Shown one piece after another: positions 14,251 through 52,063 of a DNA stretch of 64,000 nucleotides (position 1 is the stretch's first letter; every line of letters begins with the position of its first letter). The DNA lies in NCBI GenBank assembly GCA_020849475.1, contig JADLGE010000064.1:62001-126000 (forward strand), given 5' to 3'. The DNA comes from Gammaproteobacteria bacterium (GTDB lineage: Bacteria > Pseudomonadota > Gammaproteobacteria > Ga0077536). The position numbers and the translations under genes were made by a program. The notes under the pieces were generated by a model. The model made no database searches. It was not told where the DNA came from and was given only the letters and a program-made list of their open reading frames with translations.

Positions 14251-14303
14251 CCTGCCCGGCGGGAGCCTCTCGCTGTTTCCATTCCGACGGAGCCACACCG
14301 ACC

Positions 14304-15326
14304 ATGAAAATCGCTTTCATGCCTGACACCCATTTCGGTGTCTACGATCAGACCACCCAGCCCAAGCCCGACGATGTCGCCGACGCCATGGACCATTGCA
14401 TTGCCGAAGGCGTGCTGGCCGAGAAAGTCGGCTTCGATGGCCTGTGGGTGCCCGAACGTCATCAGCGTCCCGAGACCTGGTGGCCGAATGCGACCTCGCT
14501 CATGATGGTGCTGGCCGCGCAAACCAAACACGTGCAGATCGCCAGCACCGTCATCCAGCCGACCTTCCATCACCCGATACATCTCGCCGAGACCCTGTCG
14601 GCCATCGACAACTTGAGCCGCGGCCGCCTGGTATTCGGCGCCGGTGTCGGTTACCACCAGGATTATTTCCGTTGTTTCGGTGTGCCCTTTGAAGGGCGCG
14701 GAGCGCGCTTCGAGGAAGTGATGGATTGCATCGTCGGCGCCTGGACGCAGGAAGAGTTCAACTACCACGGCAAGTATTTCCAGTACGAAGGCGTGCGCCT
14801 GACGCCCCATCCGTATCAGAAGCCGCGCCCGCCGATCTGGATCGGTGCTTTCGCGCCCAAGGCCATGCAGCGTGCGCTCGACTATGAAGGCTGGTGCCTG
14901 TGGTTCCCGCCGGGCTTCAATGAACTGGAGCCAGCGGTGAAAGACATGCGCGAACGCGCGGCGGCGCGCGGCAAGCATGACTTCCAGGTCACCATTGGTT
15001 TTGAGGGCTGGCTCAGCAGCGACAAGGACGTGCGCGCCAAGCACGGCCATCGCTGGGTGCGCGAGTGGAGTTTCTACGCGGAGAAGGGCCTGTCGCCCGA
15101 CGCCGAAGCGACCGACATGCTCGACACCATCGAGAACATGTTCCTGTGTCTGGGCAACAAACAGAAATGGGTCGACCGTCTTGGCGAGATGAAAGACAAG
15201 GTCAATCCCGACTGGCTGTGCATACGCACGCGCAATCCGGTGAATCCGGGGCAGCATTACCCGTCGCGCACGGAATGCCTGGAGGTGATCGAGGCGTTTG
15301 GGGAAATTTTGAAAGACGTGCGTTAG
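14304..15326 (+). CDS. LLM class flavin-dependent oxidoreductase
   Basis: A 340-residue luciferase-like protein (MKIAFMPDTHFGVYD, GLWVPERHQRPETWWP, NLSRGRLVFGAGVGYHQDYF, PRPPIWIGAFAPKAM). It is the fourth LLM paralogue. ATG 14304 is preferred over an upstream in-frame start because the fold begins there. Divergent arrangement with the carboxylase operon suggests that it may process a ketone precursor or product, for example as a monooxygenase; this is inference. A hairpin overlaps its stop codon. Confidence 0.82.
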   Translation: MKIAFMPDTHFGVYDQTTQPKPDDVADAMDHCIAEGVLAEKVGFDGLWVPERHQRPETWWPNATSLMMVLAAQTKHVQIASTVIQPTFHHPIHLAETLSAIDNLSRGRLVFGAGVGYHQDYFRCFGVPFEGRGARFEEVMDCIVGAWTQEEFNYHGKYFQYEGVRLTPHPYQKPRPPIWIGAFAPKAMQRALDYEGWCLWFPPGFNELEPAVKDMRERAAARGKHDFQVTIGFEGWLSSDKDVRAKHGHRWVREWSFYAEKGLSPDAEATDMLDTIENMFLCLGNKQKWVDRLGEMKDKVNPDWLCIRTRNPVNPGQHYPSRTECLEVIEAFGEILKDVR

Positions 15327-15342
15327 GCGCCAGGGGGCGCCT
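15325..15342 (+). terminator. Hairpin overlapping the LLM stop codon
   Basis: Arms AGGCGCC (15325-15331) and GGCGCCT (15336-15342) around loop AGGG, starting inside the TAG stop. A GGTTTTAATG stretch follows ten bases later. Confidence 0.45.
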
Positions 15343-15358
15343 GCGTTGCGGTTTTAAT

Positions 15359-15381
15359 GTCCGATGGAAATCGGACCTACA
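15359..15381 (-). repeat. Single REP-like palindrome
   Basis: GTCCGAT (15359-15365), loop GGAA, ATCGGAC (15370-15376), followed by CTACA. Read on the minus strand this gives a TGTAGG head and the same hairpin as at 11161. It sits between two LLM genes. Confidence 0.6.
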
Positions 15382-15414
15382 GCGGTCGGCGATAACAGGT
15401 CGAGGGGCGATGCG

Positions 15415-16455
15415 ATGAAACTGGGGATGGTGCTCGGGTATTCAGGCGCGCAGGTCAAACTGCCGATGGACTTGGTGTTCGAGGCCGAGCGCCTCGGCTT
15501 TGATTCGGTGTGGAGCGCCGAGGCCTGGGGCGCCGACGCGGTGTCGCCAGTGGCCTGGGTGTTGGCCCAGACCACGCGTATCAAGGCCGGCACGGCGGTG
15601 ATGCAGATGGCGGCGCGCACGCCGTCCATGACCGCCATGACGGCCATGACCCTCGACCAGTTGTCCGGTGGCCGCTTCATGCTCGGCATCGGGCCGTCGG
15701 GCCCGCAGGTCATCGAGGGCTGGTACGGCCAGCCCTACGGCAAGCCGCTGCTGCGCACACGCGAATATATTTCCATCATCCGCCAGATCTTCGAACGCAA
15801 GGCGCCGCTCACGCACCAGGGCGAGCATTACCAGATCCCCTATAGCGGGCCGGGCGCGATGGGCCTTGGCAAACCCTTGAAGAGCATTCTGCACGGCAAT
15901 CCGAACATTCCCATTTACATGGGCGTGGCGACCGAGAAAGGCATCAACACCGCCGCTGAGATCGCCGACGGCTGTTTCATGATCTGGGCCAATCCCGACC
16001 GCGCCAATATGTTTGCGCTGCCGCTCGATGCCGGCTTCGAAGCGGCCGGTGGTGGCAAGAGCCTCAAGAGTTTCGATTTCGCGCCCTTCGTGCGCATGGC
16101 CATGGGCCCGGATCTGCAGGCTTGCCGCGACAAGCTCAAGCATCACTTCGCGCTCTACATTGGCGGCATGGGCGCGCGCGAAAAGAATTTCTACAACGAC
16201 TACACGCGGCGACTCGGTTACGTCGACGCGGCAGTCAAGATTCAGGACTTGTACCTCGCCGGGCGCAAGGAAGAAGCGCAAGCGGCGGTGCCCGATGCCT
16301 ATATCGACGAGTGCTGCCTGGTCGGACCGCCGGAACACATCCGTGAGCAGTTGGCGCGCTGGAAAGCGGCAGGCTCACGCGGCGACATCGGCACCATGGT
16401 GCTGTCGGTGAGCAGCGCGGAAGAGCTGCGCGTGGTGGCCGAGGCGATGCTGTAG
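15415..16455 (+). CDS. LLM class F420-dependent-like oxidoreductase
   Basis: A 346-residue enzyme of the F420-type branch: MKLGMVLGYSGAQ, LGFDSVWSAEAWGADAVSP, QLSGGRFMLGIGPSGPQVIEGW (the last part is characteristic of LLM F420 oxidoreductases), and NPNIPIYMGVATEKG. GAGGGG precedes ATG 15415. It is the first gene of a five-gene unit continuing with enoyl-CoA hydratase, acyl-CoA dehydrogenase, a thiolase-like protein and DUF35. Whether the host makes F420 cannot be seen here; the protein could use FMN. Confidence 0.8.
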   Translation: MKLGMVLGYSGAQVKLPMDLVFEAERLGFDSVWSAEAWGADAVSPVAWVLAQTTRIKAGTAVMQMAARTPSMTAMTAMTLDQLSGGRFMLGIGPSGPQVIEGWYGQPYGKPLLRTREYISIIRQIFERKAPLTHQGEHYQIPYSGPGAMGLGKPLKSILHGNPNIPIYMGVATEKGINTAAEIADGCFMIWANPDRANMFALPLDAGFEAAGGGKSLKSFDFAPFVRMAMGPDLQACRDKLKHHFALYIGGMGAREKNFYNDYTRRLGYVDAAVKIQDLYLAGRKEEAQAAVPDAYIDECCLVGPPEHIREQLARWKAAGSRGDIGTMVLSVSSAEELRVVAEAML

Positions 16456-16472
16456 AGGCGGGGAGCGACACC

Positions 16473-17234
16473 ATGTCGGAAGTATTGGTGGAGGTGGCGG
16501 ACGGCCTGGTGGTGATCACCATTAACCGTCCCGAGGCGCGCAATGCCATCAACCGTGCGGTGTCGGTCGGCGTGTGCGAGGCGGTCGACATGCTCGATGC
16601 GCGCGATGATCTCAGGGTCGGCATCCTGACCGGCGCCGGCGGTGTGTTCTGCGCGGGCATGGATCTGAAAGCCTTCCTGCGCGGTGAACAGATTCGCATC
16701 GAAGGGCGCGGCATTCTCGGCATCGCCTTCACGCCGCCCACGAAGCCGCTGATTGCCGCGGTCGAAGGCTATGCGCTGGCCGGTGGCTGCGAAGCGATGC
16801 TGGCCTGCGATCTGGCCGTCGCCGCGCGCAATGCGCAATTCGGTATTCCGGAAGTAAAGCGCGGCCTCGCTGCCGGCGCCGGCGGCCTGCTGCGGCTGCC
16901 GCGCCTGATCCCGCCGCGCATTGCCATGGAGCTGGCCCTGACCGGCGACATGATCGACGCCGAGCGCGCCGCCGCGCTGGGCCTGGTCAACACGCTCACC
17001 GAACCGGGCGCGGCGCTCGACGAAGCGCGACGCCTGGCCGCGCGCATCATCGCCAATGCGCCGCTGTCGGTGGCGGCCAGCAAGCGCGTGATTGTCGAAC
17101 AGCGCGACTGGCCCCTGGAAGAAATGTTCGCGCGTCAGCAGGCCATCACCGGCCCCGTGATCGCATCCGCCGATGCGCGCGAAGGCGCCGCGGCCTTCGC
17201 CGAGAAGCGCAAGCCGAACTGGCAGGGACGCTGA
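16473..17234 (+). CDS. Enoyl-CoA hydratase/isomerase family protein
   Basis: A 253-residue crotonase-fold protein. The CoA-binding and oxyanion segments are ILTGAGGVFCAGMDLKAF (residues 51-68) and VEGYALAGGCEAMLACDLA (residues 95-113). The second motif carries Glu in GGCEAMLACD where one of the two hydratase glutamates sits; the other position (PEVKRGLAAGAGG, residues 125-137) lacks the usual Glu of a true hydratase. It may therefore be an isomerase or another crotonase-type enzyme. It starts 17 bases after the LLM gene and precedes the acyl-CoA dehydrogenase by four bases. Confidence 0.85.
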   Translation: MSEVLVEVADGLVVITINRPEARNAINRAVSVGVCEAVDMLDARDDLRVGILTGAGGVFCAGMDLKAFLRGEQIRIEGRGILGIAFTPPTKPLIAAVEGYALAGGCEAMLACDLAVAARNAQFGIPEVKRGLAAGAGGLLRLPRLIPPRIAMELALTGDMIDAERAAALGLVNTLTEPGAALDEARRLAARIIANAPLSVAASKRVIVEQRDWPLEEMFARQQAITGPVIASADAREGAAAFAEKRKPNWQGR

Positions 17235-17238
17235 GGCC

Positions 17239-18414
17239 ATGATTCCGCGCACGCTGTTCAGCGCCGAGCACGATTTGTTCCGCGCCACGGTGCAGCGTTT
17301 CATTGCCGAGCACGTCACGCCCTTCCACGCCGCATGGGAACACGCGGGCCAGGTGCCGCGTGCGCTGTGGACCCGTGCCGGTGAACTCGGTCTGTTGTGT
17401 TGCAATGTGCCGGAAGCCTACGGCGGCATGGGCGGCGACTTCCTGCACAGCACCATCCTGGTCGAGGAGTTCGCCGCGGCCGGCGCCACCGGCCCGACGT
17501 TTTACCTGCAGTCCGACATCATCGCGCCTTACCTCGTCGACTTCGGCAGTGAAGAGCAGAAACAGCGCTGGCTGCCGCGCATGGCGAGTGGCGAAGTGGT
17601 GGCGGCGCTCGGCATGAGCGAGCCCTCGGGTGGCAGCGACGTGCAGGCCATGCGCACCCAGGCGGTGCGCGATGGCGACGACTACGTGATCAATGGCCAG
17701 AAGGTCTTCATCACCAATGGCCACAGTGCCGATCTGCTGCTGCTGGCGTGCAAGACCGACCCCAGGGCGCGCGCCAAGGGCGTCAGCCTGCTCCTCGTCG
17801 AGACCGACAGGCCCGGCTTCACGCGCGGTCGCAAGCTCGAAAAAATCGGCTGCAAGGCGCAGGACACCGCCGAGCTTTTCTTCAGCGACCTGCGCGTGCC
17901 GATGACGAACGTGCTGGGCGTGGAGGGCAATGGTTTTGCCATGCTCATGACGCAGCTTGCGCAGGAGCGTTTGATCCAGGCCATCCGCGCCATTGCGAGC
18001 GCGGAGGCGGCGTTGCGCTGGACCTTGGATTACGTCGTGCAGCGCGAGATGTTCGGCCAGACCCTCGCGGATTTTCAGAACACGCGCTTCGAGCTCGCGG
18101 CCATGCATGCCGAGATCCTCATGCAACGTGTGTTCGTCGATCGCTGCGTGGAATTGCACCTGCGCCATGAACTCGATGCCACCGATGCGGCCGCCGCCAA
18201 GCTGGTCAGCACCGAGATGCAAGGGCGGGTGATGGACCGCTGCCTGCAGCTGTTTGGCGGCTGGGGCTATATGAGCGAGTTTCCGATTGCGCGGGCCTTT
18301 GTCGATGCGCGTATGTGCCGCATCGGCGGTGGCTCGGTCGAGACCATGAAGCAGATCATCGGCAACGCCCTGTTGCCGCGCGCGCCGAAGCGCGATGGCA
18401 AGGCGAGCGGCTGA
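17239..18414 (+). CDS. Acyl-CoA dehydrogenase
   Basis: A 391-residue FAD enzyme with the three-part acyl-CoA dehydrogenase fold: helical N-terminus, beta middle (ALGMSEPSGGSDVQAMRT, INGQKVFITNGHSADLLL), helical C-terminus (FGGWGYMSEFPIARAFVDAR, IGGGSVETMKQIIG). Glu in GGGSVETMK is at the usual catalytic-base position. It introduces the 2,3 double bond into an acyl-CoA and passes electrons to ETF. ATG 17239 lies four bases after the upstream stop and the thiolase-like gene begins one base after its own stop, so it is embedded in an operon. Confidence 0.9.
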   Translation: MIPRTLFSAEHDLFRATVQRFIAEHVTPFHAAWEHAGQVPRALWTRAGELGLLCCNVPEAYGGMGGDFLHSTILVEEFAAAGATGPTFYLQSDIIAPYLVDFGSEEQKQRWLPRMASGEVVAALGMSEPSGGSDVQAMRTQAVRDGDDYVINGQKVFITNGHSADLLLLACKTDPRARAKGVSLLLVETDRPGFTRGRKLEKIGCKAQDTAELFFSDLRVPMTNVLGVEGNGFAMLMTQLAQERLIQAIRAIASAEAALRWTLDYVVQREMFGQTLADFQNTRFELAAMHAEILMQRVFVDRCVELHLRHELDATDAAAAKLVSTEMQGRVMDRCLQLFGGWGYMSEFPIARAFVDARMCRIGGGSVETMKQIIGNALLPRAPKRDGKASG

Positions 18415-18415
18415 C

Positions 18416-19570
18416 ATGGGTTTGAAAGACGCAGCCTGCGTGACCGGCATCGGCGAAACCGCCTATGTGCGCGGCTCCCGCAAGAGCGCGTTTGAATTGC
18501 AGGTGGAAGCCTCATTGAAAGCCATCAACGACGCCGGCATCCACCCGTCGGACATCGATGGCGTGATCCCCATCGGCATCGTCAGCGGCATCGCCGAGGA
18601 TTTCGTCGACAACTTCGGCATTCGCGATCTGCGCTACTCGGCGCTCATTCCTCATGGCGGCGCCAGCCCGGTAATGGCCTTGCAGGCGGCCGCCACGGTG
18701 CTCGCCACCGGCGTGTGCCGCCATGTGCTGATTACTTTCGGGCGCAATGTCAGCGCCGGCAGCAACAAGGCCGGCGCGCGCATTCACAACATGCCGCAGT
18801 TTCATTACGTCACGGAATTCGAGCATCCGCTCGGCAACAGCGCGCCGGCGCAGATCTACGCACCCATGGCGCGCCGGCACATGGAGCTCTATGGCACCAC
18901 TGTCGAGCACTTCGGCGCGGTGGCGGTGGCCTGTCGCGCGCATGCCGCGCTCAACGACAACGCCATCATGCGTACACCCATCACCCTCGAAGATCATCGC
19001 AACTCGCGCATGATTGCCGATCCGTTCCGGCTTCTGGACTGCAGTCTTGAGAGCGACGGCGGCGCGGCGGTGGTGGTGAGCGCGGCCGATGTCGCGGCCG
19101 ATGGCAGGCATCGCCGCGTGTTCATCGCGGGTGTGGCGGTCGGCCATCCCGATTCGCCGGTCTCCATCACCCAGCGCCCCGACATGACCAGTCTCGGCAT
19201 TGCCAAGGCCGCGCCGCGCGCCTTCGCCATGGCTGGCGTGACGCCGGCCGACATCCAGGTCGCGGAGATCTACGACTGCTTTACCTACGCCGTGATTCGG
19301 CAGCTGGAAGACCTGGGTTTCTGCAAGAAAGGCGAGGGCGGCCCGTTCGTCGCCGACGGCCGTCTGCGTCTCGGCGGCGCCTTGCCAACCAATACCCACG
19401 GCGGCCTGTTGTCGCAGGCCCATGTGTGGGGGCTCAATCACATCGTCGAACTGGTGCGGCAGTTGCGCGGCGACGGTGGCCGCGCGCAGGTGGCGGGTGC
19501 TGAACTCGGCCTCGTCACCGGCTATGGCGATCTCGGCGACGGTGCGCTCGCCATCATGCGGCGCGCATGA
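18416..19570 (+). CDS. Cysteine-less thiolase-like protein (lipid-transfer/aldolase type)
   Basis: A 384-residue thiolase-fold protein. Where true thiolases have the nucleophilic Cys (NxCATG), this one reads IPHGGASPVMALQ (residues 78-90) and has no Cys. The usual GHPxGATG near the C-terminus is replaced by TNTHGGLLSQAH (residues 325-336), and EIYDCFTYAV (284-293) carries a Tyr. This matches Ltp2-like retro-aldolases of steroid side-chain degradation, which also lack Cys and need a DUF35 partner. The next gene is such a DUF35 protein. Likely role: C-C bond cleavage of a hydroxyacyl-CoA made by the upstream dehydrogenase and hydratase. The substrate is unknown. Confidence 0.8.
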   Translation: MGLKDAACVTGIGETAYVRGSRKSAFELQVEASLKAINDAGIHPSDIDGVIPIGIVSGIAEDFVDNFGIRDLRYSALIPHGGASPVMALQAAATVLATGVCRHVLITFGRNVSAGSNKAGARIHNMPQFHYVTEFEHPLGNSAPAQIYAPMARRHMELYGTTVEHFGAVAVACRAHAALNDNAIMRTPITLEDHRNSRMIADPFRLLDCSLESDGGAAVVVSAADVAADGRHRRVFIAGVAVGHPDSPVSITQRPDMTSLGIAKAAPRAFAMAGVTPADIQVAEIYDCFTYAVIRQLEDLGFCKKGEGGPFVADGRLRLGGALPTNTHGGLLSQAHVWGLNHIVELVRQLRGDGGRAQVAGAELGLVTGYGDLGDGALAIMRRA

Positions 19571-19574
19571 AGCG

Positions 19575-19985
19575 ATGAGCGAGCGGGCTGCGAAACCGGA
19601 AGTGGTGGAGAGTGCGCTCTCGGCAACCTACTGGCAGGGCTTGCGCGAAGGCCGGCTGCTGCTGCAGGCCTGCGGCGTGTGCGGCGCGCTGCGTCATTAT
19701 CCGCGCTTGTTGTGCACGGCTTGCTTCAGCGACGTCGTGACGTGGCGCGCGGCCAGCGGTCGCGGTCACATCCATAGCTGGACGGTGGCCCACCACGCCT
19801 TCCACGTCGGCTTTCGCGATGAACTGCCTTACACCTTGGTGACGGTCGATCTCGAAGAAGGGCCGCGCGCGCTCGGGCGCTGGCAGGGCGAGACGCCGCG
19901 CATCGGCATGGCGGTGCGAGCGCGGTTCGAAACGGCGCCAGCGGCCGTCGAGCTCTGGTTCGAGCAGGACGGCCTGGCGCGATGA
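19575..19985 (+). CDS. Zn-ribbon/OB-fold (DUF35) protein, thiolase partner
   Basis: A 136-residue protein with a rubredoxin-like zinc ribbon (C33, C36, C47, C50 in ACGVCGALRHYP and LLCTAC) followed by an OB fold (GRGHIHSWTVAHHAF, LPYTLVTVDLEEGPRALGRW). DUF35 proteins of this size form complexes with thiolase-fold enzymes, shaping the CoA channel in archaeal HMG-CoA synthase/thiolase and in Ltp2-ChsH2 aldolases. ATG 19575 is four bases after the thiolase-like stop. Its stop is one base from the stop of the convergent chemoreceptor gene. Confidence 0.85.
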   Translation: MSERAAKPEVVESALSATYWQGLREGRLLLQACGVCGALRHYPRLLCTACFSDVVTWRAASGRGHIHSWTVAHHAFHVGFRDELPYTLVTVDLEEGPRALGRWQGETPRIGMAVRARFETAPAAVELWFEQDGLAR

Positions 19986-36875: not shown

Positions 36876-37084
36876 GGGGCCAGGGCGACCAATGTGAAAA
36901 TCCGTGACGATGTCGCAAAGCGCGAACCAGTTCCGCAAAGATCTCGCGCAAATCACAAAAGGCAGCTCATTTCATATTTCGAATAAGGCACTCCACCCCG
37001 GAGCATCGCCCCTCACCCGCGCGTCGTCGCCCGAGCATGCTTGGGCCTGCGCGCCATAAAGAATCTGGACCAGGGAGTTTTCAA

Positions 37085-37849
37085 TTGAATAACAACATCA
37101 AAACACTGTGCCTGCTCGCTGCCGGCGCGTTGGGCATGGCCAGTCAGGCCCAGGCCGCGCTCTACAGCGGCGAAGTGGCCAATCTGCGCAACGCCGCCGG
37201 CGCGGTGGCCGGCGACAACGACGCCGACGCGTCGGGTAATGCGTGGGCCGCGACCGGCGGTTCGGCGGCCAACAAGGGGGTGCGCCTGAGCTATACGGTC
37301 GACCAGGTGAGCGCCAACGACTGGGCCTATTCCTACACCTTCACCGCCGGCTCGACCGCACAGAAGCAGGTGGCGCGTTTCAGTCTTGAAGTCGGCAGCA
37401 ACTTCACGGCCGGCTCGCTGTTGAGCGCGACCTGCAGCATCGCGGCGGACTGCGCATCGCCGGCGGCGGGTCTCAGCGCCCCCGGCCAGCTGAGCGAAGA
37501 TGTCGGTCTGGTCAGTGCGCCGCAGACGCTGAGTCTGTTCGGTCTGCGCTGGGTGTTCCCGCTGAACAATTTCTCCTTCACCGTGACCCTGCATTCGAAT
37601 CTGGGCCCGGTGTGGGGCGACTTCATCGTCAAGTCCAGTGAAACGACGCAAAATCCGCCGACCTTCCTCGCCGCCTGGAACCATGGCTTCGGCACCGATG
37701 TGGCGACGCCCATCGTGACGGGTAACGACGCCGCGGGTTACGTGCTGGTGCCCGGCGCCCCGGCGCCGGTGCCACTGCCGGCGTCCTTGCCGATGCTGCT
37801 CGGCGCCTGCGCGGCGCTCGGTTGGGCGCGGCGCCGCAAAGCGGCCTGA
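37085..37849 (+). CDS. Secreted VPLPA-CTERM (PEP-CTERM-type) protein
   Basis: A 254-residue exported protein. It starts at TTG 37085: an AGGGAG site (37072-37077) sits seven bases upstream and a perfect signal peptide follows (NNNIKTLCLLAAGALGMASQAQA). The C-terminus has the sorting signal: VPLPASLPMLLG, a hydrophobic stretch (ACAALGWA) and the basic tail RRRKAA. In exosortase systems this tail is cut by a membrane exosortase and the protein is released or anchored, often in biofilm or exopolysaccharide. The middle is low in Cys and beta-rich with no named domain. A near-palindrome, CCGAGCATGCTTGG (37031-37044), lies in the leader. Confidence 0.8.
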   Translation: MNNNIKTLCLLAAGALGMASQAQAALYSGEVANLRNAAGAVAGDNDADASGNAWAATGGSAANKGVRLSYTVDQVSANDWAYSYTFTAGSTAQKQVARFSLEVGSNFTAGSLLSATCSIAADCASPAAGLSAPGQLSEDVGLVSAPQTLSLFGLRWVFPLNNFSFTVTLHSNLGPVWGDFIVKSSETTQNPPTFLAAWNHGFGTDVATPIVTGNDAAGYVLVPGAPAPVPLPASLPMLLGACAALGWARRRKAA

Positions 37850-37953: not shown

Positions 37954-38003
37954 CCCGCAGCCGGCGTCAGCGCGCCGGCTCATTCCACCAGCGGCGAGCT
38001 GAC

Positions 38004-39188
38004 ATGACCCAAGCCAATGTTCTTAGCGGCGTGCGCGTGCTCGATTTTTCGCGCTATATCGCCGGCCCCTATTGCGCGGCCCTGCTGGGCTTCCTCGGCG
38101 CCGATGTCATCCGCATCGAAAAGCCCGGCGGCGGCGAAGACCGCTTTGTCGGCCCTTTGAGCCCGACCGCCAGCGCCATCTTCATGGAGACCGGCGTCAA
38201 CAAGCGCAGCATGACGCTGGACTTGAAGCATCCCGAGTCGGCGGCGGTGGTGGCGCAACTGGTGCGCGGCGCCGATGTGGTCATCGCCAACATGCCGCCC
38301 AAGGTCTTGAAGCGCATGGGCCTCGATTTCGACACCTTGCGCGCCATCAAGCCCGACATCATTCTCACCACCCAGACCGCTTTCGGTCATCGCGGGCCGT
38401 GGGCGGACAGAGGCGGCTTCGATGGTCTCGGCCAGGTGATGTCGGGCTCGGCCTTCATGTCCGGCACGCCGGGCCAGCCGGCGCGCAGCGCCACGCCCTT
38501 CGTCGATTACAGCACCGCGGTGCTGGGCGCCTTCGGCACCTTGGCGGCGCTCTACCATCGCCGCACCTCGGGCGAAGGCCAGCATGTGCAGGCGTCTTTG
38601 CTCGGCAGCGGCGTGGCATCTTTCAGTCCGCTGCTCATCGAGCAGGCGATCCTCGGGCTCAATCGCCAACCGACCGGCACGCGCGGCCAGACCAGCGGTC
38701 CGACCGATATCTTCAAGACCCGCGACGGCCATGTGATCACCCAGGTGCTGGGCAGTGGCCTGTTCGCCAACGTCGCGCGCGCGCTTGGCACTGAACATTG
38801 GCTGTCGAATCCGGATTACGCCACCGATGAATTGCGCGGCGAACATCGCGATGAACTGTGCGAGGTGGTGGCGGCGTGGTGCGCGACGCGCGGCAGTGAA
38901 GAAATCATCGACATCATGGCCAAGGCCGGTGTGCCCTGCGGGCCGGTGCTGGACATGGAGGGCGCCATGGCCCATCCGCAGATCAAGGCCATGGGCTTTC
39001 TCAGGCCGGTGGAATTTCCTGAATTCAGCAAGCCGGCGCCGGTGCCGCGCCTGCCGCTCGATTTCTCAAGTATTGATCCACCGCAAGTGCGCCCGCCGCT
39101 GGTTGGCGAGCATACCGACGCGGTGCTCGCCGAGTTCGGTTACGACGCGGCAGGCATCGCGCGGCTGCGTGCCGCGGGCGTGGTGTGA
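38004..39188 (+). CDS. CaiB/BaiF (family III) CoA-transferase
   Basis: A 394-residue CoA-transferase. Family segments: VLDFSRYIAGPYCAALLGFLGADVIRIEKPGGGEDRF at the N-terminus, then VNKRSMTLDLKHPE, GGFDGLGQVMSG, and the catalytic Asp in TPFVDYSTA. These enzymes form interlocked dimers and move CoA between acids through an aspartyl-CoA thioester. It is the first gene of the second acyl-CoA block and probably activates the substrate acid. ATG 38004 begins the conserved sequence; an upstream in-frame extension does not align. Confidence 0.88.
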   Translation: MTQANVLSGVRVLDFSRYIAGPYCAALLGFLGADVIRIEKPGGGEDRFVGPLSPTASAIFMETGVNKRSMTLDLKHPESAAVVAQLVRGADVVIANMPPKVLKRMGLDFDTLRAIKPDIILTTQTAFGHRGPWADRGGFDGLGQVMSGSAFMSGTPGQPARSATPFVDYSTAVLGAFGTLAALYHRRTSGEGQHVQASLLGSGVASFSPLLIEQAILGLNRQPTGTRGQTSGPTDIFKTRDGHVITQVLGSGLFANVARALGTEHWLSNPDYATDELRGEHRDELCEVVAAWCATRGSEEIIDIMAKAGVPCGPVLDMEGAMAHPQIKAMGFLRPVEFPEFSKPAPVPRLPLDFSSIDPPQVRPPLVGEHTDAVLAEFGYDAAGIARLRAAGVV

Positions 39189-39261: not shown

Positions 39262-40689
39262 ATGAGCTACGGCATACTTTCCTTTGGCGCCTACATCCCG
39301 CCCTTACGCCTGTCGCGTCAGGCCATCCTGAGTGCCGTCGGCTGGGCGGTGCCGTCCTTGCGCGGCCTCGCGGCCGGTGAACGCTCGGTCGCCAATTGGG
39401 ATGAAGATGCCCTGACCATGGCGGTCGAAGCCGGCCGTGACTGCCTGCGCGACATCGGCGTGGTGCCGCCGCACGTGGCGCTGGCCTCGACCACGTTGCC
39501 GTTCGCCGATCGCAGCAACAGTGGCGTCATCGCCGATGCCTTGAATCTCGACAACCGCGTGGCGACCGAAGACCTGGCTGGCAGCCGCCGCGCCGCCACC
39601 AGTGCGCTGGCGCGCATGGCCCATGGCGGTCAGACCTCCTTGCTGCTGGCGAGCGACTGTCGCGAGACGCGCCCGGGCAGCGCGCAGGACATGCTCTACG
39701 GCCACGGCGCCGCTGCCTTGCTGGTCGGCGAGGGCAGGCCGGTGGCGGTGTTCCTCGGCAGCGCGTCTCGCCATGAAGACCTGGTCGATCAATATCGCGC
39801 GTCCGACGCCGATTTCGACTACAGCCTCGAAGAGCGCTGGGTGCGCGAAGAGGGCTATCTCAAAATCGTGCCGGAAGTCATCGAGGAAGTGGCGAAGGGA
39901 GCCGGTGTGTCGCTGTCGGACATCGACCACGTGGTGTTACACGGTTCGATAGACACCGCGCGCGCGCTGGCCAAGCGCCTCGGCATCGACATCAAGCGTT
40001 TCGCCGACACGCTGGGTGGCAAGGTCGGTGATTGTGGCGTGGCGCAGCCGATGATCATGCTGTCGAAAGTGCTGGCCGAGGCCGGCGTCAATGAACGCAT
40101 CCTGGTGGTGGGCTTCGGTCAGGGCGCCGATGCGGTGCTGCTTGAGACCACGCCGCTGCTGTCGACCATGCAGGCCGGCCGCGGTCCGCAGCACTACCTC
40201 GACCACGGCCGCGTGAGTGACAACTACACCTATTTCCTGTCGCTGCGCGGACAGATAGACATCGACTTCGGGCTGCGCTCGGAGCGCGATAACCGCACCG
40301 CGCTGTCGGCCTATTACCGCAAGCGTCGCGACATCAATTCCATGCTGGGTGGGCGCTGCCGGGTGTGCAACACCTTGCAGTTTCCGCGTTCGCTGGTGTG
40401 CGTGAAGTGCGCCTCATCCGATTCCCAGGATGGCGAGAGCTTGTCCAATCTGCTTGGTCGCGTGAAGTCCTTCACCGAAGACTGGCTGGCCTACACGCCG
40501 TCGCCGCCCTACATCTACGGCAATGTCGAATTCGCCGACGGCGCCAACATCATGCTTGAGTTCACCGATTTCACCGCCGGCCAGGTCAAGGTTGGCGACT
40601 CGGTGCGGATGGTGTTCCGCATCAAGGATTTCGATCACAAGCGCAACTTCCGCCGCTATTTCTGGAAACCCGCGCCGCTGCTGGGCTGA
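39262..40689 (+). CDS. HMG-CoA-synthase-like protein fused to a DUF35 domain
   Basis: A 475-residue fusion. Residues 1-340 have the thiolase fold of archaeal-type HMG-CoA synthase; residues 345-475 are a DUF35 module with zinc ribbon Cys366, Cys369, Cys380, Cys383 and an OB fold (LGRVKSFTEDWLAYTPSPPY). Aligned by eye to archaeal HMG-CoA synthase, the catalytic Cys (FACKAGT) is Gly107 (EDLAGSRRAAT), the general-base Glu becomes Thr, the Asn near GNTYSG becomes Asp257, and only His227 (VLHGS) is kept. It therefore probably does not run the normal acyl-enzyme reaction. A catalytically complete thiolase follows 47 bases later, recalling the archaeal thiolase/HMGS/DUF35 complex. Confidence 0.82.
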   Translation: MSYGILSFGAYIPPLRLSRQAILSAVGWAVPSLRGLAAGERSVANWDEDALTMAVEAGRDCLRDIGVVPPHVALASTTLPFADRSNSGVIADALNLDNRVATEDLAGSRRAATSALARMAHGGQTSLLLASDCRETRPGSAQDMLYGHGAAALLVGEGRPVAVFLGSASRHEDLVDQYRASDADFDYSLEERWVREEGYLKIVPEVIEEVAKGAGVSLSDIDHVVLHGSIDTARALAKRLGIDIKRFADTLGGKVGDCGVAQPMIMLSKVLAEAGVNERILVVGFGQGADAVLLETTPLLSTMQAGRGPQHYLDHGRVSDNYTYFLSLRGQIDIDFGLRSERDNRTALSAYYRKRRDINSMLGGRCRVCNTLQFPRSLVCVKCASSDSQDGESLSNLLGRVKSFTEDWLAYTPSPPYIYGNVEFADGANIMLEFTDFTAGQVKVGDSVRMVFRIKDFDHKRNFRRYFWKPAPLLG

Positions 40690-40736
40690 GCCCCACCCGT
40701 CGCCCCACCAGCACCGCAAGCTTCAGGAGAATACAC

Positions 40737-41939
40737 ATGGCCAAAGGCATCAAAGACAGGGTCGCGATCATCGGCATGGGCTGCTCGCGTTTCGGCGAGC
40801 GCTGGGACTGCGGTCCCGAAGAGTTGATAGTCGAAGCATTCACCGAGGCCTTGGCGGATGCCAAGATCGATCGCGAGCAGATTGAAATGGCGTGGCTGGG
40901 CCTGTTCTTCCAGGAACAGAGCGCCGGCAAGTCGGCGCTGCCCCTCAGCATGTCCTTGCGCCTGCCGAACATCCCGGTCACGCGCGTCGAGAACCTGTGC
41001 GCCACCGGCACCGAAGCACTGCGCGGCGCGGTCTACGCGGTGGCGGCCGGCGCCTGCGATTTCGCACTCGCGGTCGGCGTCGAAAAATTGAAGGACACCG
41101 GCTACGGCGGTCTGCCGGAACGCACCAAGGGCAGCTTTGACGATTTGTGGCTGCCGAATGCGACCGCGCCCGGCGCGTTCGCGCAGCTGGCCAGCGCCTA
41201 CACCGCCAAGCACGGCTGCGATCCGAAGGATCTCAAGCGCGCCATGGCGCACATCTCCTACAAGAGCCATCAGAACGGCGTCTTGAACCCCAAGGCCCAT
41301 CTGCAGAAAGCCATCACCGAAGACCAGGCCTTGAACGCGCCGATGATCGCCTATCCTCTCGGTCTCTATGACTGCTGCGGTGTCAGCGACGGCGCGGCCT
41401 GTGCCATCGTCACCAGCGTCGAGAAGGCACGCGAGATGGGCATCAAGGACATGGTGACGGTCAAAGCCATGCAGCTCGCGCCGAGCAACGGCCTCGAAAT
41501 GTCCAATACCGCGTGGGACGGCAGCTATCTGCTGACCACCCGCATCGCCGCCGAGCGCGCCTACAAGGAAGCAGGCGTGACCAACCCCGTCGCGCAGCTG
41601 GACATGACCGAGGTGCATGACTGTTTCTCCGTCACTGAACTGGTGGTGATGGAAGATCTCGGTCTGTCGGTGCCGGGCGGGGCGATCAAGGACGTGCTGG
41701 ACGGCAAGTTCGACGCCGACGGCCAGGTGCCGTGTCAGATTGACGGTGGCCTGAAATGTTTCGGTCATCCCATCGGCGCCACCGGCCTGCGCATGGCCTA
41801 CGAGATGTATTTGCAGCTGCTCGGCCGCGCCGGCAAGCGTCAGCTCAAGTCGCCGAGCCTCGGGCTCACCCATAATCTCGGTGGGCATCCGTTCCGCAAC
41901 GTCGCGAGCGTGTCGATCTTCGGCCTGCATTCCGCCTGA
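40737..41939 (+). CDS. Thiolase (acetyl-CoA C-acetyltransferase family)
   Basis: A 400-residue thiolase of the SCP2/archaeal branch. Catalytic residues are intact: nucleophile Cys88 in VENLCATGTEAL, His294 in EVHDCFS, and His344 in KCFGHPIGATGLRM. AGGAGA precedes the ATG by six bases. It should catalyse thiolytic cleavage or Claisen condensation of a 3-ketoacyl-CoA. Its neighbour carries a DUF35 domain, so complex formation is likely. A strong hairpin follows its stop. Confidence 0.9.
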   Translation: MAKGIKDRVAIIGMGCSRFGERWDCGPEELIVEAFTEALADAKIDREQIEMAWLGLFFQEQSAGKSALPLSMSLRLPNIPVTRVENLCATGTEALRGAVYAVAAGACDFALAVGVEKLKDTGYGGLPERTKGSFDDLWLPNATAPGAFAQLASAYTAKHGCDPKDLKRAMAHISYKSHQNGVLNPKAHLQKAITEDQALNAPMIAYPLGLYDCCGVSDGAACAIVTSVEKAREMGIKDMVTVKAMQLAPSNGLEMSNTAWDGSYLLTTRIAAERAYKEAGVTNPVAQLDMTEVHDCFSVTELVVMEDLGLSVPGGAIKDVLDGKFDADGQVPCQIDGGLKCFGHPIGATGLRMAYEMYLQLLGRAGKRQLKSPSLGLTHNLGGHPFRNVASVSIFGLHSA

Positions 41940-41986: not shown

Positions 41987-42104
41987 GCGCTGAACCGTCG
42001 GCCGCTGGCGCGCGTAGCTGGCTGCACCATCTCTCGTGATGCACCTGCGGCCATGCATTTCGGTGCATGAGCCGCCAATCGCTTTTGTTTATCGGAGCCT
42101 CGCC

Positions 42105-43250
<1,146 letters not shown>

Positions 43251-43268: not shown

Positions 43269-44804
43269 ATGACCGACATGAGCGACAACGCCAATCTTTA
43301 CGCCCGCCTGGCGGCGGGCTTCGACCATGGCGCCGATTTTCTCGAACTGCAGGACGGCACGCGCTACACCTATGGCGACGCCGAGCGTGCCAGCGCGCAG
43401 GTCGCCCATGCCCTGGGCGCGCTGGGTTTGAAAACCGGCGACTGCGCGGCGGTCGTCGCTGAAAAAAGCGTGGCGCTGGTGTGGCTGTATCTCGGCTGCC
43501 TGCGCGCCGGCGTCATCTACCAGCCCTTGAACAGCTCCTACAGCGAGCGTGAGCTGGCGTTCTTCATCGGCAACTCCGGCGCGCGCCTGGTGGTGCACGA
43601 CCCGCAACTCGAGGGGCGCATCGAAGCGGCCTGTGCGCAGTGCGCCAGCGCGCCGCGACGCATGACGCTCGATGCCCACGGCGAAGGTGAGATAGCGGCC
43701 GCCTGGGCGGCGGCGGACACCCAGTTCGAGACCCATCACGCCAGCGGCGATGGCGTCGCCGCACTGCTGTATTCCTCGGGCACCACCGGCACGCCCAAGG
43801 GCATTCCCATCACCCACGACAACCTGTTCCGCAATGCCGTGGCGCTGCGCGACACGTGGGGTTTCGTGCGTGAAGACGTGTTGCTGCACGCGCTGCCCTT
43901 CTACCACGTGCATGGCTTGTTCATTACCTTGCACCCGGCCATGCTGGCTGGTATGCGGCTGCGCTTTCACGCACGCTTCGAGGCCGAGGAAGTGCTGCAA
44001 GGGCTGGCGGGTGCGAGCCTGTTTGCCGGCGTGCCGACGTACTACACGCGCCTGCTCAGCCTGGCTGGCTTCAATCGCGACGCCTGCGCGTCGGTGCGCT
44101 TGTTCATTTCGGGCTCGGCGCCGCTGCTGGAATCGACCTTCCATGAATTCAGCGCGCGCACCGGCCAGGTAATCCTCGAACGCTATGGCATGACGGAAAC
44201 CGGCATCAACACCTCCAATCCCCTGCACGGCGAACGTCGCGCCGGTTCAGTGGGGCTGCCGCTGGCCGGCACCGATGTGCGCATTGTGAGCGAGCAGGGC
44301 GCGCCGCTCGCACAGGGCGAGATTGGTGAAATCGAAGTGCGCGGGCCGAATGTGTTCCGTGGTTACTGGCGTCTGCCAGAGCAGAGCGCCTCGGCATTCA
44401 GCGCCGATGGCTTCTTTCGCACTGGTGACCAAGGGCGCTTCGATGAAGACGGCTATCTATTCATCGTCGGTCGCAGCAAGGACATGATCATCAGCGGCGG
44501 CCTCAACGTCTATCCCAAGGAAATCGAAAGCGAGCTCGACGAACTGCCGAACGTGGTCGAATCGGCAGTGTTCGGCGTGCCCCATCCCGACTTCGGCGAA
44601 GCGGTGATGGCGGCGGTCATCCCACGTGGTGAGTTTGACGAAGCAGCGGTGCTCGCCCATCTGCGCGCGCGCCTGGCCGGCTTCAAGCTGCCCAAGCGCA
44701 TCGTCATCGTGAGCGACCTGCCGCGCAACACCATGGGCAAGGTGCAGAAGAGCCGGTTGCGCGACAGCTACGCCGACGCATTCATCGCCAACGCGCGCGG
44801 CTGA
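43269..44804 (+). CDS. matB: Malonyl-CoA synthetase-like acyl-CoA ligase (MatB type)
   Basis: A 511-residue ANL-superfamily ligase. P-loop SSGTTGTPKG (169-178), adenylation core ERYGMTETGINTSNP, and the hinge and catalytic-Lys segments GRSKDMIISGGLNVYPKEIESE and LPRNTMGKVQKSRLR. The MTETxxNTSNP and NTMGKVQK wording is the same as in Rhizobium MatB, which activates malonate with ATP and CoA. No malonyl-CoA decarboxylase (MatA) is beside it, so the malonyl-CoA, or a methylmalonyl homologue, would go elsewhere. Other short dicarboxylates are possible. Confidence 0.8.
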   Translation: MTDMSDNANLYARLAAGFDHGADFLELQDGTRYTYGDAERASAQVAHALGALGLKTGDCAAVVAEKSVALVWLYLGCLRAGVIYQPLNSSYSERELAFFIGNSGARLVVHDPQLEGRIEAACAQCASAPRRMTLDAHGEGEIAAAWAAADTQFETHHASGDGVAALLYSSGTTGTPKGIPITHDNLFRNAVALRDTWGFVREDVLLHALPFYHVHGLFITLHPAMLAGMRLRFHARFEAEEVLQGLAGASLFAGVPTYYTRLLSLAGFNRDACASVRLFISGSAPLLESTFHEFSARTGQVILERYGMTETGINTSNPLHGERRAGSVGLPLAGTDVRIVSEQGAPLAQGEIGEIEVRGPNVFRGYWRLPEQSASAFSADGFFRTGDQGRFDEDGYLFIVGRSKDMIISGGLNVYPKEIESELDELPNVVESAVFGVPHPDFGEAVMAAVIPRGEFDEAAVLAHLRARLAGFKLPKRIVIVSDLPRNTMGKVQKSRLRDSYADAFIANARG

Positions 44805-46458: not shown

Positions 46459-46914
46459 ATGGCGGGTCTTTATTTCGAAGAATTTCAGGTCGGACAGATT
46501 TTCAAGCACGCGATCCATCGCACGCTCACCGAGACCGACAACGTGCTGTTCACGGCAATGACCCACAATCCGGCGCGCCTGCATCTGGACGAAGAGTATT
46601 GCCGTAACGAGACCGAGTTCGGTCAGCGCATCGTCAACAGTGCCTTCACGCTGGCACTCATGGTCGGCATCAGTGTGCACGACACCACGCTCGGCACCAC
46701 CGTCGCCAATCTCGGCTGGGATGAAGTGCGTTTCCCGGCGCCGCTGTTTCACGGCGACACCATCCGCGTCGAATCGGAAGTGCTGGAACTGCGCGAAAGC
46801 AAATCCCGCCCGCAGAACGGCGTGGTGATATTTGCGCACCGCGCCTACAACCAGAAGAACCAGTTGGTGGCGGTGTGCAAGCGCTCCGGCCTCATGCTGA
46901 GGAAGCCGAAATGA
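46459..46914 (+). CDS. MaoC-family (hot-dog) enoyl-CoA hydratase
   Basis: A 151-residue hot-dog protein. GLYFEEFQVGQIFKHAIHRTLTETDNVLFTAMTHNPARLHLDEEYCR carries the hydratase-2 motif: Asp in TETDN, Asn/Pro in THNPARLH and His before the long helix. The gene overlaps the CoA-ester lyase by ATGA. The pairing of a MaoC hydratase with a CitE/Mcl-like lyase is seen in the ethylmalonyl-CoA and methylaspartate pathways (mesaconyl-CoA hydratase plus beta-methylmalyl-CoA lyase) and in itaconate catabolism, so one of those roles is plausible. Confidence 0.85.
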   Translation: MAGLYFEEFQVGQIFKHAIHRTLTETDNVLFTAMTHNPARLHLDEEYCRNETEFGQRIVNSAFTLALMVGISVHDTTLGTTVANLGWDEVRFPAPLFHGDTIRVESEVLELRESKSRPQNGVVIFAHRAYNQKNQLVAVCKRSGLMLRKPK

Positions 46915-47792
46915 GCCTGCGTTCGCTGCTGTTCGCGCCCGGCGACAGCGATAAAAAAATGGCCAAGGCGTCGGACAGCGGCGCCGACTGCGTGATTCTC
47001 GATCTGGAAGACTCGGTGGCCGCCAGCCGCAAGCCCATCGCGCGCGAGATGGTGCGTGAGTTTCTGAAAGCCGGCACCAATCCCAATGTCGAGTTCTGGG
47101 TGCGCTGCAATCCGCTCGACGGCCCCTATGTCCTGCACGACATCGCGGCGGTCGCGGCGGCCGCGCCCAAGGGCATCATCCTGCCCAAGACCAATGGTGC
47201 GGAAGACATCGTCACGGTCGCGCGTTTTCTCGACGTGCTCGAAGCGGAGCACGGCCTTGCCGCCGGCAGCATCGGCATCCTGCCGGTAGCCACCGAGACC
47301 GCCGCCGCGCCTTTTGGCCTCGGCAGTTACAACAAGCACACGCCGCGCCTGCGCGGTCTGACCTGGGGCGCTGAAGATCTGGGCGCAGCCGTGGGCGCGA
47401 GTTCCAATCTCGAAGCCAATGGTCAATGGACCTCGCCGTTCGTGTTGGTGCGTGCGCTGTGCCTGTTCGCGGCCCACGCCGCGGGAGTGCAGGCGGTCGA
47501 CACGGTGATGGCGGACTTCCGCGATCTGGCCGGTCTCGAGCGCGTGTGCAATGAAGCGCGTCGCGATGGCTTCACCGGCAAGATTGCCATTCATCCGGCC
47601 CAGGTGCCGGTCATCAACCAGGCCTTCAGCCCGAGCGACGCCGAAGTGGCGCATGCACGCGCGGTGCTTGACCTGTTTGCCGCCAATCCCGATGCCGGCA
47701 CACTGCAACTCGATGGCAAGATGATAGACAAGCCCCATGAAGTGCAGGCCCAGCGCATCATCGCCATGGCCGAGCGCCTCAAGGCACGCTGA
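46911..47792 (+). CDS. CoA-ester lyase (HpcH/HpaI, citrate lyase beta family)
   Basis: A 293-residue Mg-dependent lyase: SLRSLLFAPGDSDKKMAKASDSGADCVILDLEDSVAASRKPIAR, then the Glu-Asp metal ligands in GLTWGAEDLGAAVG, and the C-terminal IHPAQVPVINQAF segment. Members cleave malyl-CoA, beta-methylmalyl-CoA or citramalyl-CoA into an acyl-CoA and glyoxylate or pyruvate. Translation is coupled to the MaoC gene. With a likely mesaconyl-type hydratase beside it, (beta-methyl)malyl-CoA or citramalyl-CoA are the best guesses. Confidence 0.85.
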   Translation: MSLRSLLFAPGDSDKKMAKASDSGADCVILDLEDSVAASRKPIAREMVREFLKAGTNPNVEFWVRCNPLDGPYVLHDIAAVAAAAPKGIILPKTNGAEDIVTVARFLDVLEAEHGLAAGSIGILPVATETAAAPFGLGSYNKHTPRLRGLTWGAEDLGAAVGASSNLEANGQWTSPFVLVRALCLFAAHAAGVQAVDTVMADFRDLAGLERVCNEARRDGFTGKIAIHPAQVPVINQAFSPSDAEVAHARAVLDLFAANPDAGTLQLDGKMIDKPHEVQAQRIIAMAERLKAR

Positions 47793-47877
47793 GCACGCTG
47801 CGCGGGTTGCGATGAAGCAGCCCGCGCCCGCCGTGCGTCATGCATCCACCCCCCCTGCGTCAGCGGAGCATCACCCC

Positions 47878-48750
47878 ATGAACAGTTGGTCCCAGCAAAA
47901 AAAATTCGTCACTGTTGACGGTCGGCGTATGGCCTACGTCGAAATGGGCAGTGGCCGTCCCATCGTGTTCCAGCATGGCAACCCGACTTCGTCCTATCTG
48001 TGGCGCAACATCCTGCCCAAGTTGGCGGACCTTGGTCGCTGCATCGCCATCGATCTGATTGGCATGGGCGACTCGGACAAGCTGCCGGACTCCGGTCCCG
48101 GGCGCTATACGTTCGCCGAGCAGAGCCATTATCTCGACGGCGCATTTCAAGCTATCGGCATCGAACGCGACGTGGTGTTGGTGCTGCACGACTGGGGTTC
48201 GGCGCTGGGCTTCGACTGGATGCGCCGTCATGCGGGTGCGGCCGCCGCGGTCGCGCACATGGAAGGCATCGTCAAACCGCTGCGTTGGGACGAATGGCCG
48301 GCGGCCGCCACCGAAATCTTTCGCGCGTTCCGTTCGGAGGCGGGCGAGGATCTGGTGCTGGCCAAGAACGTGTTCGTTGAAAACGTGCTGCCGAAGTCCA
48401 TCCTGCGCCCCTTGAGCGAAGAAGAGATGGACGCCTATCGCGCACCGTTTCGCAACGCTGGCGAAGATCGCCGGCCGACGCTCACCTGGCCGCGCCAGAT
48501 CCCGCTCGCCAATCAGCCGGCCGAGGTCTGCGCGCTGGTCGATGCCTATGGCGCGTATCTCAAGACTGCAACGATGCCCAAGCTTTTCATCAGCGCCACA
48601 CCCGGCATGATCATGAACGGCGCACCGGCCGAGGTCGCGCGCAGTTGGCCGAACACCACCGAGGTGACGGTCAAGGGCCTGCACTTCATCCAGGAAGATT
48701 CTCCGGACGACATCGCCACCGCGTTACGCGATTGGCTGAAGACGTTCTGA
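47878..48750 (+). CDS. Haloalkane dehalogenase (LinB/HLD-II-like)
   Basis: A 290-residue alpha/beta hydrolase that follows LinB of Sphingobium almost step by step. All five functional residues are present: Asn35 (FQHGNPTSSYLWRN) and Trp106 for halide binding, nucleophile Asp105 (LHDWGSALGFDW), acid Glu129 (AHMEGIV) and base His269 (GLHFIQEDSP). It should replace a halogen on an alkane carbon with hydroxyl. ATG 47878 is preferred; upstream in-frame sequence has no homology. No signal peptide. Next gene: a FlK-like thioesterase 25 bases downstream. Confidence 0.9.
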   Translation: MNSWSQQKKFVTVDGRRMAYVEMGSGRPIVFQHGNPTSSYLWRNILPKLADLGRCIAIDLIGMGDSDKLPDSGPGRYTFAEQSHYLDGAFQAIGIERDVVLVLHDWGSALGFDWMRRHAGAAAAVAHMEGIVKPLRWDEWPAAATEIFRAFRSEAGEDLVLAKNVFVENVLPKSILRPLSEEEMDAYRAPFRNAGEDRRPTLTWPRQIPLANQPAEVCALVDAYGAYLKTATMPKLFISATPGMIMNGAPAEVARSWPNTTEVTVKGLHFIQEDSPDDIATALRDWLKTF

Positions 48751-51263: not shown

Positions 51264-51601
51264 CCGCTAGATCCGCTCACATGCTCGCCGCAGCGTTGAC
51301 ACATTTTTTTGCGCAGCCGATCACACGCACACTCCGCGCGTCAGAGCTCCCACGCGTTTTGTGACCCACGCACGCCGCGAATTTTGCGTGGCGTCGAGAT
51401 CCCGACCATTTCGCCACGCTTCGTGTCAAAGCTGTGACACACGCCCAGAAAGGGGTAGGGGCTGCCGTGCCGGCCGTACCGTGCCCTTTGCTATAGTCGA
51501 CCTCAGGTAGAAGAGCGGTAAAAAAAGTCGCTCTGAAGCTGAAACGCGGCTCAGGAAGTTACCGCGCTGTTTGTTGATTAGTGTTTGTAAGGATGATGGT
51601 T
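51264..51601. promoter_or_regulatory. Regulatory region upstream of the second VPLPA-CTERM gene
   Basis: 338 bases without a gene. It contains a perfect inverted repeat GTGTCA (51423-51428) / TGACAC (51435-51440), a TATAGT hexamer (51492-51497) that could be a -10, and in the leader a hairpin AGAGCG (51512-51517) / CGCTCT (51529-51534) with an A-rich loop. The leader would be about 100 bases. No sigma-54 box fits the required spacing. Confidence 0.45.
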
Positions 51602-52063
51602 ATGAAACTTTTAAGTAAGTACTCGATGATCAGTGCGCTGCTGGTGCTGCTGACCTTCAGCATGGGCTCTCAAGCCCAGGTTGTGGACAGCGGTTTCAAG
51701 GCGGGTAGCTGGGCTGACAGCGGCAATATCACGCTGGCTGCAGGCAACTACACCCTTGAATTGCTGGCAGTGGCATTTTCCGATCCGGCTGGTCCGTTCG
51801 TGTTCGGTCTGAAGGGTGCCTCGGAGCCGCTCTACAAGGTGACTTTGGCCACCGAAGGGTTCGTCTCCCAGGTGTTCTCCCTGGCCGGCGGCACTTACCA
51901 CTGGCTGGTCGGTGGCAATGGTGGCGACTTCGGCACGGGCTTCACCGCTTCGGTGAATGCCGCGCCGGTGCCGCTGCCGTCGTCGGTCATCATGATTGGT
52001 AGCGCGCTGGCCGCCATGGTCAGCATCGGTCGTCGCGGCGCAAGCCGTCGCGCCCGTGGCTAA
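51602..52063 (+). CDS. Small secreted VPLPA-CTERM-type protein
   Basis: A 153-residue exported protein: signal peptide MKLLSKYSMISALLVLLTFSMGSQAQ, a beta-rich body with a GNYTLELLAVAFSD segment, and a C-terminal sorting signal VPLPSSVIMIG, hydrophobic stretch SALAAMVSIG and basic tail RRGASRRARG. ATG 51602 with AAGGA about eight bases upstream is chosen over ATGs at 51593 and 51596. It is the second exosortase-type substrate in the window, so the genome must carry an exosortase elsewhere. A lower G+C upstream region and a long leader suggest strong regulation. Confidence 0.8.
   Translation: MKLLSKYSMISALLVLLTFSMGSQAQVVDSGFKAGSWADSGNITLAAGNYTLELLAVAFSDPAGPFVFGLKGASEPLYKVTLATEGFVSQVFSLAGGTYHWLVGGNGGDFGTGFTASVNAAPVPLPSSVIMIGSALAAMVSIGRRGASRRARG

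Follow-up and report, generated by a model that had tools for sequence, protein, structure and literature searches.

An HMG-CoA-synthase-like/DUF35 fusion without the catalytic cysteine is encoded beside an intact thiolase in bacterial catabolic gene clusters

The 2,4-diacetylphloroglucinol-type acyltransferases (PhlACB/PpATase and CsATase; structures 5M3K, 5MG5 and 9SKH) combine an HMG-CoA-synthase (HMGCS)-like subunit with a DUF35 protein and a thiolase, each encoded by its own gene. By 2010, the phl operon had been described as encoding a DUF35 protein together with an active and an inactive member of the thiolase superfamily, and DUF35 domains fused to thiolase-superfamily proteins had been noted in general (PMC2954200). 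The PhlA subunit lacks two key HMGCS residues, Cys and Glu; the acetyl group is carried on Cys88 of PhlC, only PhlC residues contact the product and act in acyl transfer, and assembly probably requires PhlA and PhlB (PMC6392133). An HMGCS-like part without its Cys beside an intact thiolase is thus already known, having been published for PhlA (PMC6392133) and described as the inactive member (PMC2954200).

The archaeal acetoacetyl-CoA thiolase/HMGCS/DUF35 complex (6ESQ, 6ET9) has the same three folds. It is encoded by three genes and serves the mevalonate pathway with an active HMGCS (Cys, Glu, His, and Asn). MucABC of Streptococcus macacae (9VBO, 9VBT) is a three-component acyltransferase with separate genes, and the Cys is missing from its HMGCS-like subunit too. 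The benzoylsuccinyl-CoA thiolase BbsAB (7PXP, 7PYT) pairs a DUF35 protein with an SCP2-type thiolase. BbsAB is catabolic, its bbs operon has CoA-transferase III and acyl-CoA dehydrogenase genes alongside, and it is not known to have an HMGCS-like part. DUF35 partners also accompany the steroid aldolases Ltp2 and Sal (in the Ltp2-ChsH2 and Sal-Shy pairs), which carry YDHF and YDCY motifs, respectively; in Sal, Gly replaces the Cys nucleophile (PMC12329534).

We analysed a 64,000-nucleotide stretch of gammaproteobacterial DNA (the window) in which an HMGCS-like part and a DUF35 module form a single protein (hereafter the fusion). As the earlier note on this DNA had stated, a catalytically complete thiolase follows in the same direction; the ORFs, their Pfam domains, and the residues Cys88, His294, and His344 are all present (Table 1), and 47 bases lie between the two genes. 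As in PhlACB, the DUF35 and thiolase parts are encoded together with an HMGCS-like part lacking Cys and Glu, but the equivalents of the A and B subunits are joined in one ORF. What is new here is that the two parts are fused, how widely the fusion occurs, and that it is found in catabolic settings. We found no published account of the fused pair in the openly accessible literature, which does not disprove that one exists. The pair is a fused, widespread, and biochemically unstudied variant of the known multicomponent thiolase architecture.

Table 1. Coordinates of the fusion-thiolase pair, selected codons, and neighbouring genes in the window.
Feature	Position	Strand	Basis and remarks
CoA-transferase family III (CaiB/BaiF), directly upstream of fusion	37998..39188	+	Pfam CoA_transf_3, 357 bits; synteny
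Fusion protein, 475 aa, ATG start	39262..40689	+	HMGCS-like ~1-315, linker, DUF35 zinc ribbon/OB fold ~350-475
Thr77 codon, position of archaeal HMGCS general-base Glu	39490..39492	+	Thr in 88/91 homologues
Arg109 codon, position of archaeal HMGCS nucleophile Cys	39586..39588	+	phmmer and MAFFT
Glu190-Glu191-Arg192 codons, EER of EERW motif	39829..39837	+	190 and 192 invariant, 91/91
His227 codon, position of HMGCS catalytic His	39940..39942	+	phmmer and MAFFT
Zinc-ribbon stretch, ligands Cys366, Cys369, Cys380, Cys383	40357..40410	+	All four Zn-ligand Cys present
Thiolase, 400 aa, PRK06157 family	40737..41939	+	Cys88, HDCF (294-297), His344 of GHPIG; Pfam thiolase N and C domains
Acyl-CoA dehydrogenase	42036..43250	+	Pfam, synteny; true start possibly further downstream, near 42105
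AMP-forming acyl-CoA ligase, malonyl-CoA synthase model	43269..44804	+	NF005702, 671.7 bits vs cut-off 558
MaoC-family enoyl-CoA hydratase	46459..46914	+	Pfam; stays with pair in several lineages
CitE/HpcH-family C-C lyase	46875..47792	+	Pfam; stays with pair in several lineages
Haloalkane-dehalogenase-family hydrolase	47737-48750	+	PRK03592, 404.6 bits vs cut-off 241; syntenic in five relatives

Pfam models place ACP_syn_III_C, the C-terminal part of the KAS III/HMGCS fold, at residues 214-289 of the fusion and OB_ChsH2_C at residues 399-453. The zf-ChsH2 match between them (residues 362-386) scored 22.1 bits, just below its 23.2-bit cut-off. Each of the four zinc-ligand Cys is present in 70/70 sequences of a 70-sequence set; among the 91 fused homologues, 82-87 have Cys in a given ligand column. 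A few of these 91 are without the full set in the alignment, which suggests either that some lineages have a DUF35 module without zinc or that the alignment is in error. The two NCBIfam equivalog models for archaeal HMGCS matched the fusion well, with scores nonetheless under their cut-offs (156.9 bits against a cut-off of 244, and 97.2 against 353.35). Its best PDB sequence matches by phmmer were CsATase-A (89.6 bits), PhlA (88.9), archaeal HMGCS (79.8), and MucA, whose similarity is low (53); the DUF35 half matched 6ESQ chain E and PhlB. An AlphaFold2 model built on a 70-sequence alignment had a pLDDT of 92.7 and a pTM of 0.93; its less confident parts lay chiefly at the linker (331-350) and at a loop near 171-190. 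The ten best PDB structure matches found for this model with Foldseek were all HMGCS-like subunits of multicomponent complexes, namely those of 9SKH, 6ESQ/6ET9, 5MG5/5M3K, and 9VBT/9VBO. A promoter scan gave no signal.

Residue columns of the synthase half were read from MAFFT alignments and from the phmmer match to archaeal HMGCS (6ESQ chain I), and counts refer to the 91 fused homologues. The earlier note had put Gly107 at the position of the catalytic Cys. Both methods place Arg109 there instead, while the loss of Cys itself stands: the column holds Gln in fifty-nine sequences, Leu in thirteen, Arg in twelve, Met, Ala, and Ser in two each, Pro in one, and Cys in none (0/91). None of Cys61, Cys133, or Cys258, each a candidate for a shifted nucleophile, falls in this column or is invariant, and no Cys outside the zinc ribbon is fully conserved in the 70-sequence set. 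The proposed replacements of the general-base Glu by Thr and of the archaeal Asn by Asp were upheld, with Thr77 and Asp257 aligned at those positions. The catalytic His is likewise kept in the window, as His227, but this is a local feature and not one of the family (Pro in 73/91, His in 6/91), which rules it out as a sign of retained catalysis. Asp49, Thr77, and Arg179 are near-invariant in the fused homologues, and Asp49, Arg179, and Arg192 are common to the fusion family and working archaeal HMGCS.

The Cys column holds Gly in PhlA and the CsATase A subunit and Glu in MucA; in each of these three subunits, the Glu column is occupied by Cys and the His column by Gln. As judged from these alignments, loss of the nucleophile and Glu is a property of the fusion family, alike in kind to that of the PhlA-type subunits. 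With Cys missing at position 109 throughout the homologues and Pro prevailing at the His227 column, the loss of Cys is a family trait and not a local lesion. Recent decay or sequencing error can be ruled out, because Cys is absent family-wide and the reading frame is open.

The thiolase is a member of PRK06157 (NF004810, ‘acetyl-CoA acetyltransferase’; 667.6 bits, cut-off 403), a model that supplies only a name and is silent on the fused partner. Cys88, the HDCF motif with His294, and His344-Pro345 are invariant in forty-one aligned thiolases with 48-100% identity to that of the window. A profile of these forty-one sequences scored 258 bits against 6ESQ_A (the archaeal thiolase subunit and nearest solved relative), 206 against the SCP2 thiolase, 182 against BbsB, 101 against the more distant PhlC, and 80 against Ltp2. 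The AlphaFold2 model (pLDDT 85.5, pTM 0.89) had the SCP2 thiolase, 6ESQ_A, and BbsB as its top Foldseek matches. The set of Cys, HDCF, and GH followed by Pro or Ala also occurs in 6ESQ_A (GHA) and the SCP2 thiolase (GHP), so that on sequence grounds the window thiolase carries the residue set of SCP2 and archaeal thiolases and not that of the aldolases. PhlACB is only a partial model for the pair, since the window thiolase is closer to the archaeal acetoacetyl-CoA thiolase and BbsB than to PhlC. Despite the resemblance to BbsAB, the window proteins fall far under its NCBIfam equivalog cut-offs (BbsB 136.4 vs 750 bits, BbsA 20.5 vs 250).

Fusion and thiolase travel together. In a class-level sample, strong matches to the fusion and matches to the thiolase fell in the same 8/274 genomes, with nine copies of each; in a phylum-level sample, both fell in the same 10/398 genomes, with eleven copies of each. 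Because the window genome was counted in both samples, these amount to seventeen genomes and nineteen pairs, with the two genes one-to-one in every sampled genome that had either. Seventeen of the nineteen pairs are adjacent, and the other two are split over different contigs. The two genes are also adjacent, from an 8-base overlap to 115 bases apart, in the retrieved named loci that hold both, except at L083 and L096 (2.4 and 1.8 kb apart). This strict co-occurrence and adjacency argues strongly that the two genes form a functional unit. The genome of the window itself contains a single fusion, together with ten other thiolase-like places.

A scan of genome contigs returned at least 564 relatives, of which 80, mainly from Pseudomonadota, were kept. 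The pair is carried by hundreds of mainly proteobacterial genomes and by some Rhodococcus plasmids, which have 30-33% homologues; such recurrence is more than chance. Niveispirillum cyanobacteriorum and Azoarcus sp. KH32C are examples of cultured carriers. In the tree, whose root is unsure because a distant fusion (L007) and two outgroups form long branches, the window lies within a starred clade of ten gammaproteobacterial rows. One sequence labelled Klebsiella pneumoniae (L031) groups inside this gammaproteobacterial MAG clade. The fusions of loci L035 and L037, whose records bear the titles ‘Candidatus Kuenenia’ and ‘Rhizobium sp. Q54’, are almost the same as each other (48% to the window), and the MAG label of one or both is probably wrong.

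We labelled the neighbouring genes of the relatives' loci by tblastn. In the window, Pfam and NCBIfam matches flanking the pair bear out the earlier note's cluster with a CoA-transferase III, an acyl-CoA dehydrogenase, and a ligase matching the malonyl-CoA synthase model. Five loci of the window's clade have the order fusion, thiolase, acyl-CoA dehydrogenase, ligase, MaoC, CitE, and haloalkane-dehalogenase-like hydrolase, and a CoA-transferase gene lies immediately upstream of the fusion in the window and three relatives. A homologue of this CoA-transferase (45-56%) is kept in the sister clade's operon too. A neighbouring lineage of twelve loci has another operon, with CoA-transferase (10/12), glutathione S-transferases, a Rieske oxygenase (12/12), fusion, thiolase, and SDR. 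On plasmids of Sphingobium and Sphingopyxis macrogoltabida, the fusion, thiolase, MaoC, CoA ester lyase, and acyl-CoA dehydrogenase genes are consecutive; a similar set is arranged divergently in Diaphorobacter. In Rhodococcus qingshengii and Variovorax SRS16, the pair adjoins two-subunit ring-hydroxylating oxygenases and enoyl-CoA hydratases. These gene settings are those of the catabolism of CoA thioesters. Itaconate itself is unsupported as the substrate, since the window's MaoC and CitE proteins fall well short of the itaconate-pathway cut-offs (135 vs 340 bits and 164 vs 375 bits). The lignin-ketone route (VceA/VceB) and the ibuprofen genes ipfDE were rejected as functional matches, as nothing shows that those proteins are this fusion.

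The reading we prefer, and consider likely, is that fusion and thiolase are a two-gene form of the thiolase/HMGCS-like/DUF35 complex within a catabolic operon, in which the thiolase is catalytic and the fusion a non-catalytic partner. The two proteins would be the products of one multicomponent thiolase-superfamily enzyme, comparable to archaeal AACT/HMGCS/DUF35, PhlCAB, and MucABC; strict pairing and the structural matches to the archaeal complex, PhlABC, and MucABC argue for the bacterial rearrangement of this complex that the earlier note had proposed. The active site would lie in the thiolase, as it does in PhlACB. Cys88 would bear the acyl group, with Cys296 and His294 of HDCF and His344 doing the acid-base and oxyanion work, in a reversible Claisen-type (thiolytic) cleavage or formation of a C-C bond on a CoA thioester; retro-Claisen chemistry by the thiolase is likely. 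The HMGCS-like domain, having lost its nucleophile and general base, may play a structural part, completing the pocket or the CoA site, and the fused DUF35 module may link the two halves. From what is directly observed, namely the sequences, the residues lost and retained, the matching fold, the strict pairing, and the conservation of the operons, we infer the physical complex, the non-catalytic role of the fusion, and the thiolytic chemistry and its direction. The window pair probably acts in the breakdown of a carboxylic acid that is branched or cyclic, together with the CoA-transferase/ligase, acyl-CoA dehydrogenase, MaoC hydratase, and CitE-type lyase. The gene settings suggest that it may cleave beta-ketoacyl-CoAs of branched or cyclic compounds, while the MaoC/CitE pair may handle positions where ordinary beta-oxidation is blocked.

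An HMGCS-like half that was itself catalytic through a re-built active site (e.g. decarboxylation, hydrolysis, or Cys-free C-C cleavage), coupled to the thiolase, would fit the invariant Glu190 and Arg192, the near-invariant residues named above, and the clean, confident predicted fold. The same residues count against our preferred reading, as they could mean residual catalysis or binding, although Asp49, Arg179, and Arg192 may be structural given their presence in working archaeal HMGCS. A re-built site is nevertheless unlikely when the only fully conserved Cys lie in the zinc ribbon, the His is mostly Pro, and the Cys-less relative PhlA gives no residue to the acyl-transfer step (PMC6392133). 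The altered chemistry once suggested for the synthase half fares poorly on the same grounds, with no nucleophile, no Glu, and a His mostly gone in the family, and a scaffold role, also raised in the earlier note, is the favoured alternative for it. More doubtful again is that the former HMGCS pocket became a second, non-Cys active site (Glu190/Arg192, Thr77, and Arg179) in tandem with the thiolase via a shared CoA site; such a fusion would be a two-step C-C-bond enzyme with chemistry unseen in characterised thiolase complexes.

We give little credence to retro-aldol cleavage by the pair in the manner of Ltp2-ChsH2 or Sal-Shy, although the DUF35 partner speaks for it, as do the catabolic settings, some of which include ring-hydroxylating oxygenases and MaoC hydratases. 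All forty-one thiolases have Cys88 and HDCF, against YDHF in Ltp2 and YDCY with Gly in Sal (PMC12329534), which makes the aldol step proposed earlier unlikely for the window thiolase, and Ltp2 scored far under 6ESQ_A and BbsB with the profile. No less improbable is a PhlACB-like C-acyltransferase that, without CoA, adds acyl groups to an aromatic or enol carbon or removes them from it. PhlA-type subunits are indeed the best sequence match of the fusion, and sister clades have aromatic-ring oxygenases, yet the thiolase stands much closer to thiolases that depend on CoA than to PhlC (258 vs 101 bits). PhlACB performs CoA-independent C-acyl transfer to phenols in antibiotic biosynthesis (Pseudomonas), unlike the catabolic setting here, and the CoA-transferase, ligase, and acyl-CoA dehydrogenase of the window's operon point to CoA thioester substrates. 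Two further points weigh against the two-gene complex with a catalytic thiolase: contact of the fusion with the thiolase is read from co-occurrence, and a 3-hydroxyacyl-CoA dehydrogenase, which would supply the beta-keto substrate, was not seen in the window's operon.

Current annotation masks the single unit under the names ‘3-oxoacyl-ACP synthase III C-terminal domain protein’ or ‘OB-fold domain-containing protein’ for the fusion and ‘acetyl-CoA acetyltransferase’ for the thiolase. Recognising the pair as a unit would correct the annotation of many catabolic clusters. It also offers a simple two-gene system for mutational tests of what a dead HMGCS-like subunit does, a role only inferred for PhlA.

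Elsewhere in the window, a second thiolase-fold gene (391 aa) is followed by a separate DUF35-like ORF (18395-19985, + strand). This second thiolase carries a YDCF motif, and the stretch expected to hold the nucleophile, HGGASPVMALQ, contains no Cys; together the two ORFs look like an SLP/Sal-type aldolase-like pair, unlike the intact thiolase at 40737. Directly upstream (14235-18414, + strand) lie two luciferase-like oxidoreductase ORFs (LLM-type by eye) and enoyl-CoA hydratase-like and acyl-CoA dehydrogenase-like ORFs, another acyl-CoA catabolic cluster. Two small exported-looking proteins with PEP-CTERM-like tails (VPLPASLPMLLGACAALGWARRRKAA; VPLPSSVIMIGSALAAMVSIGRRGASRRARG) are encoded at 37037-37849 and 51581-52063, both on the + strand.
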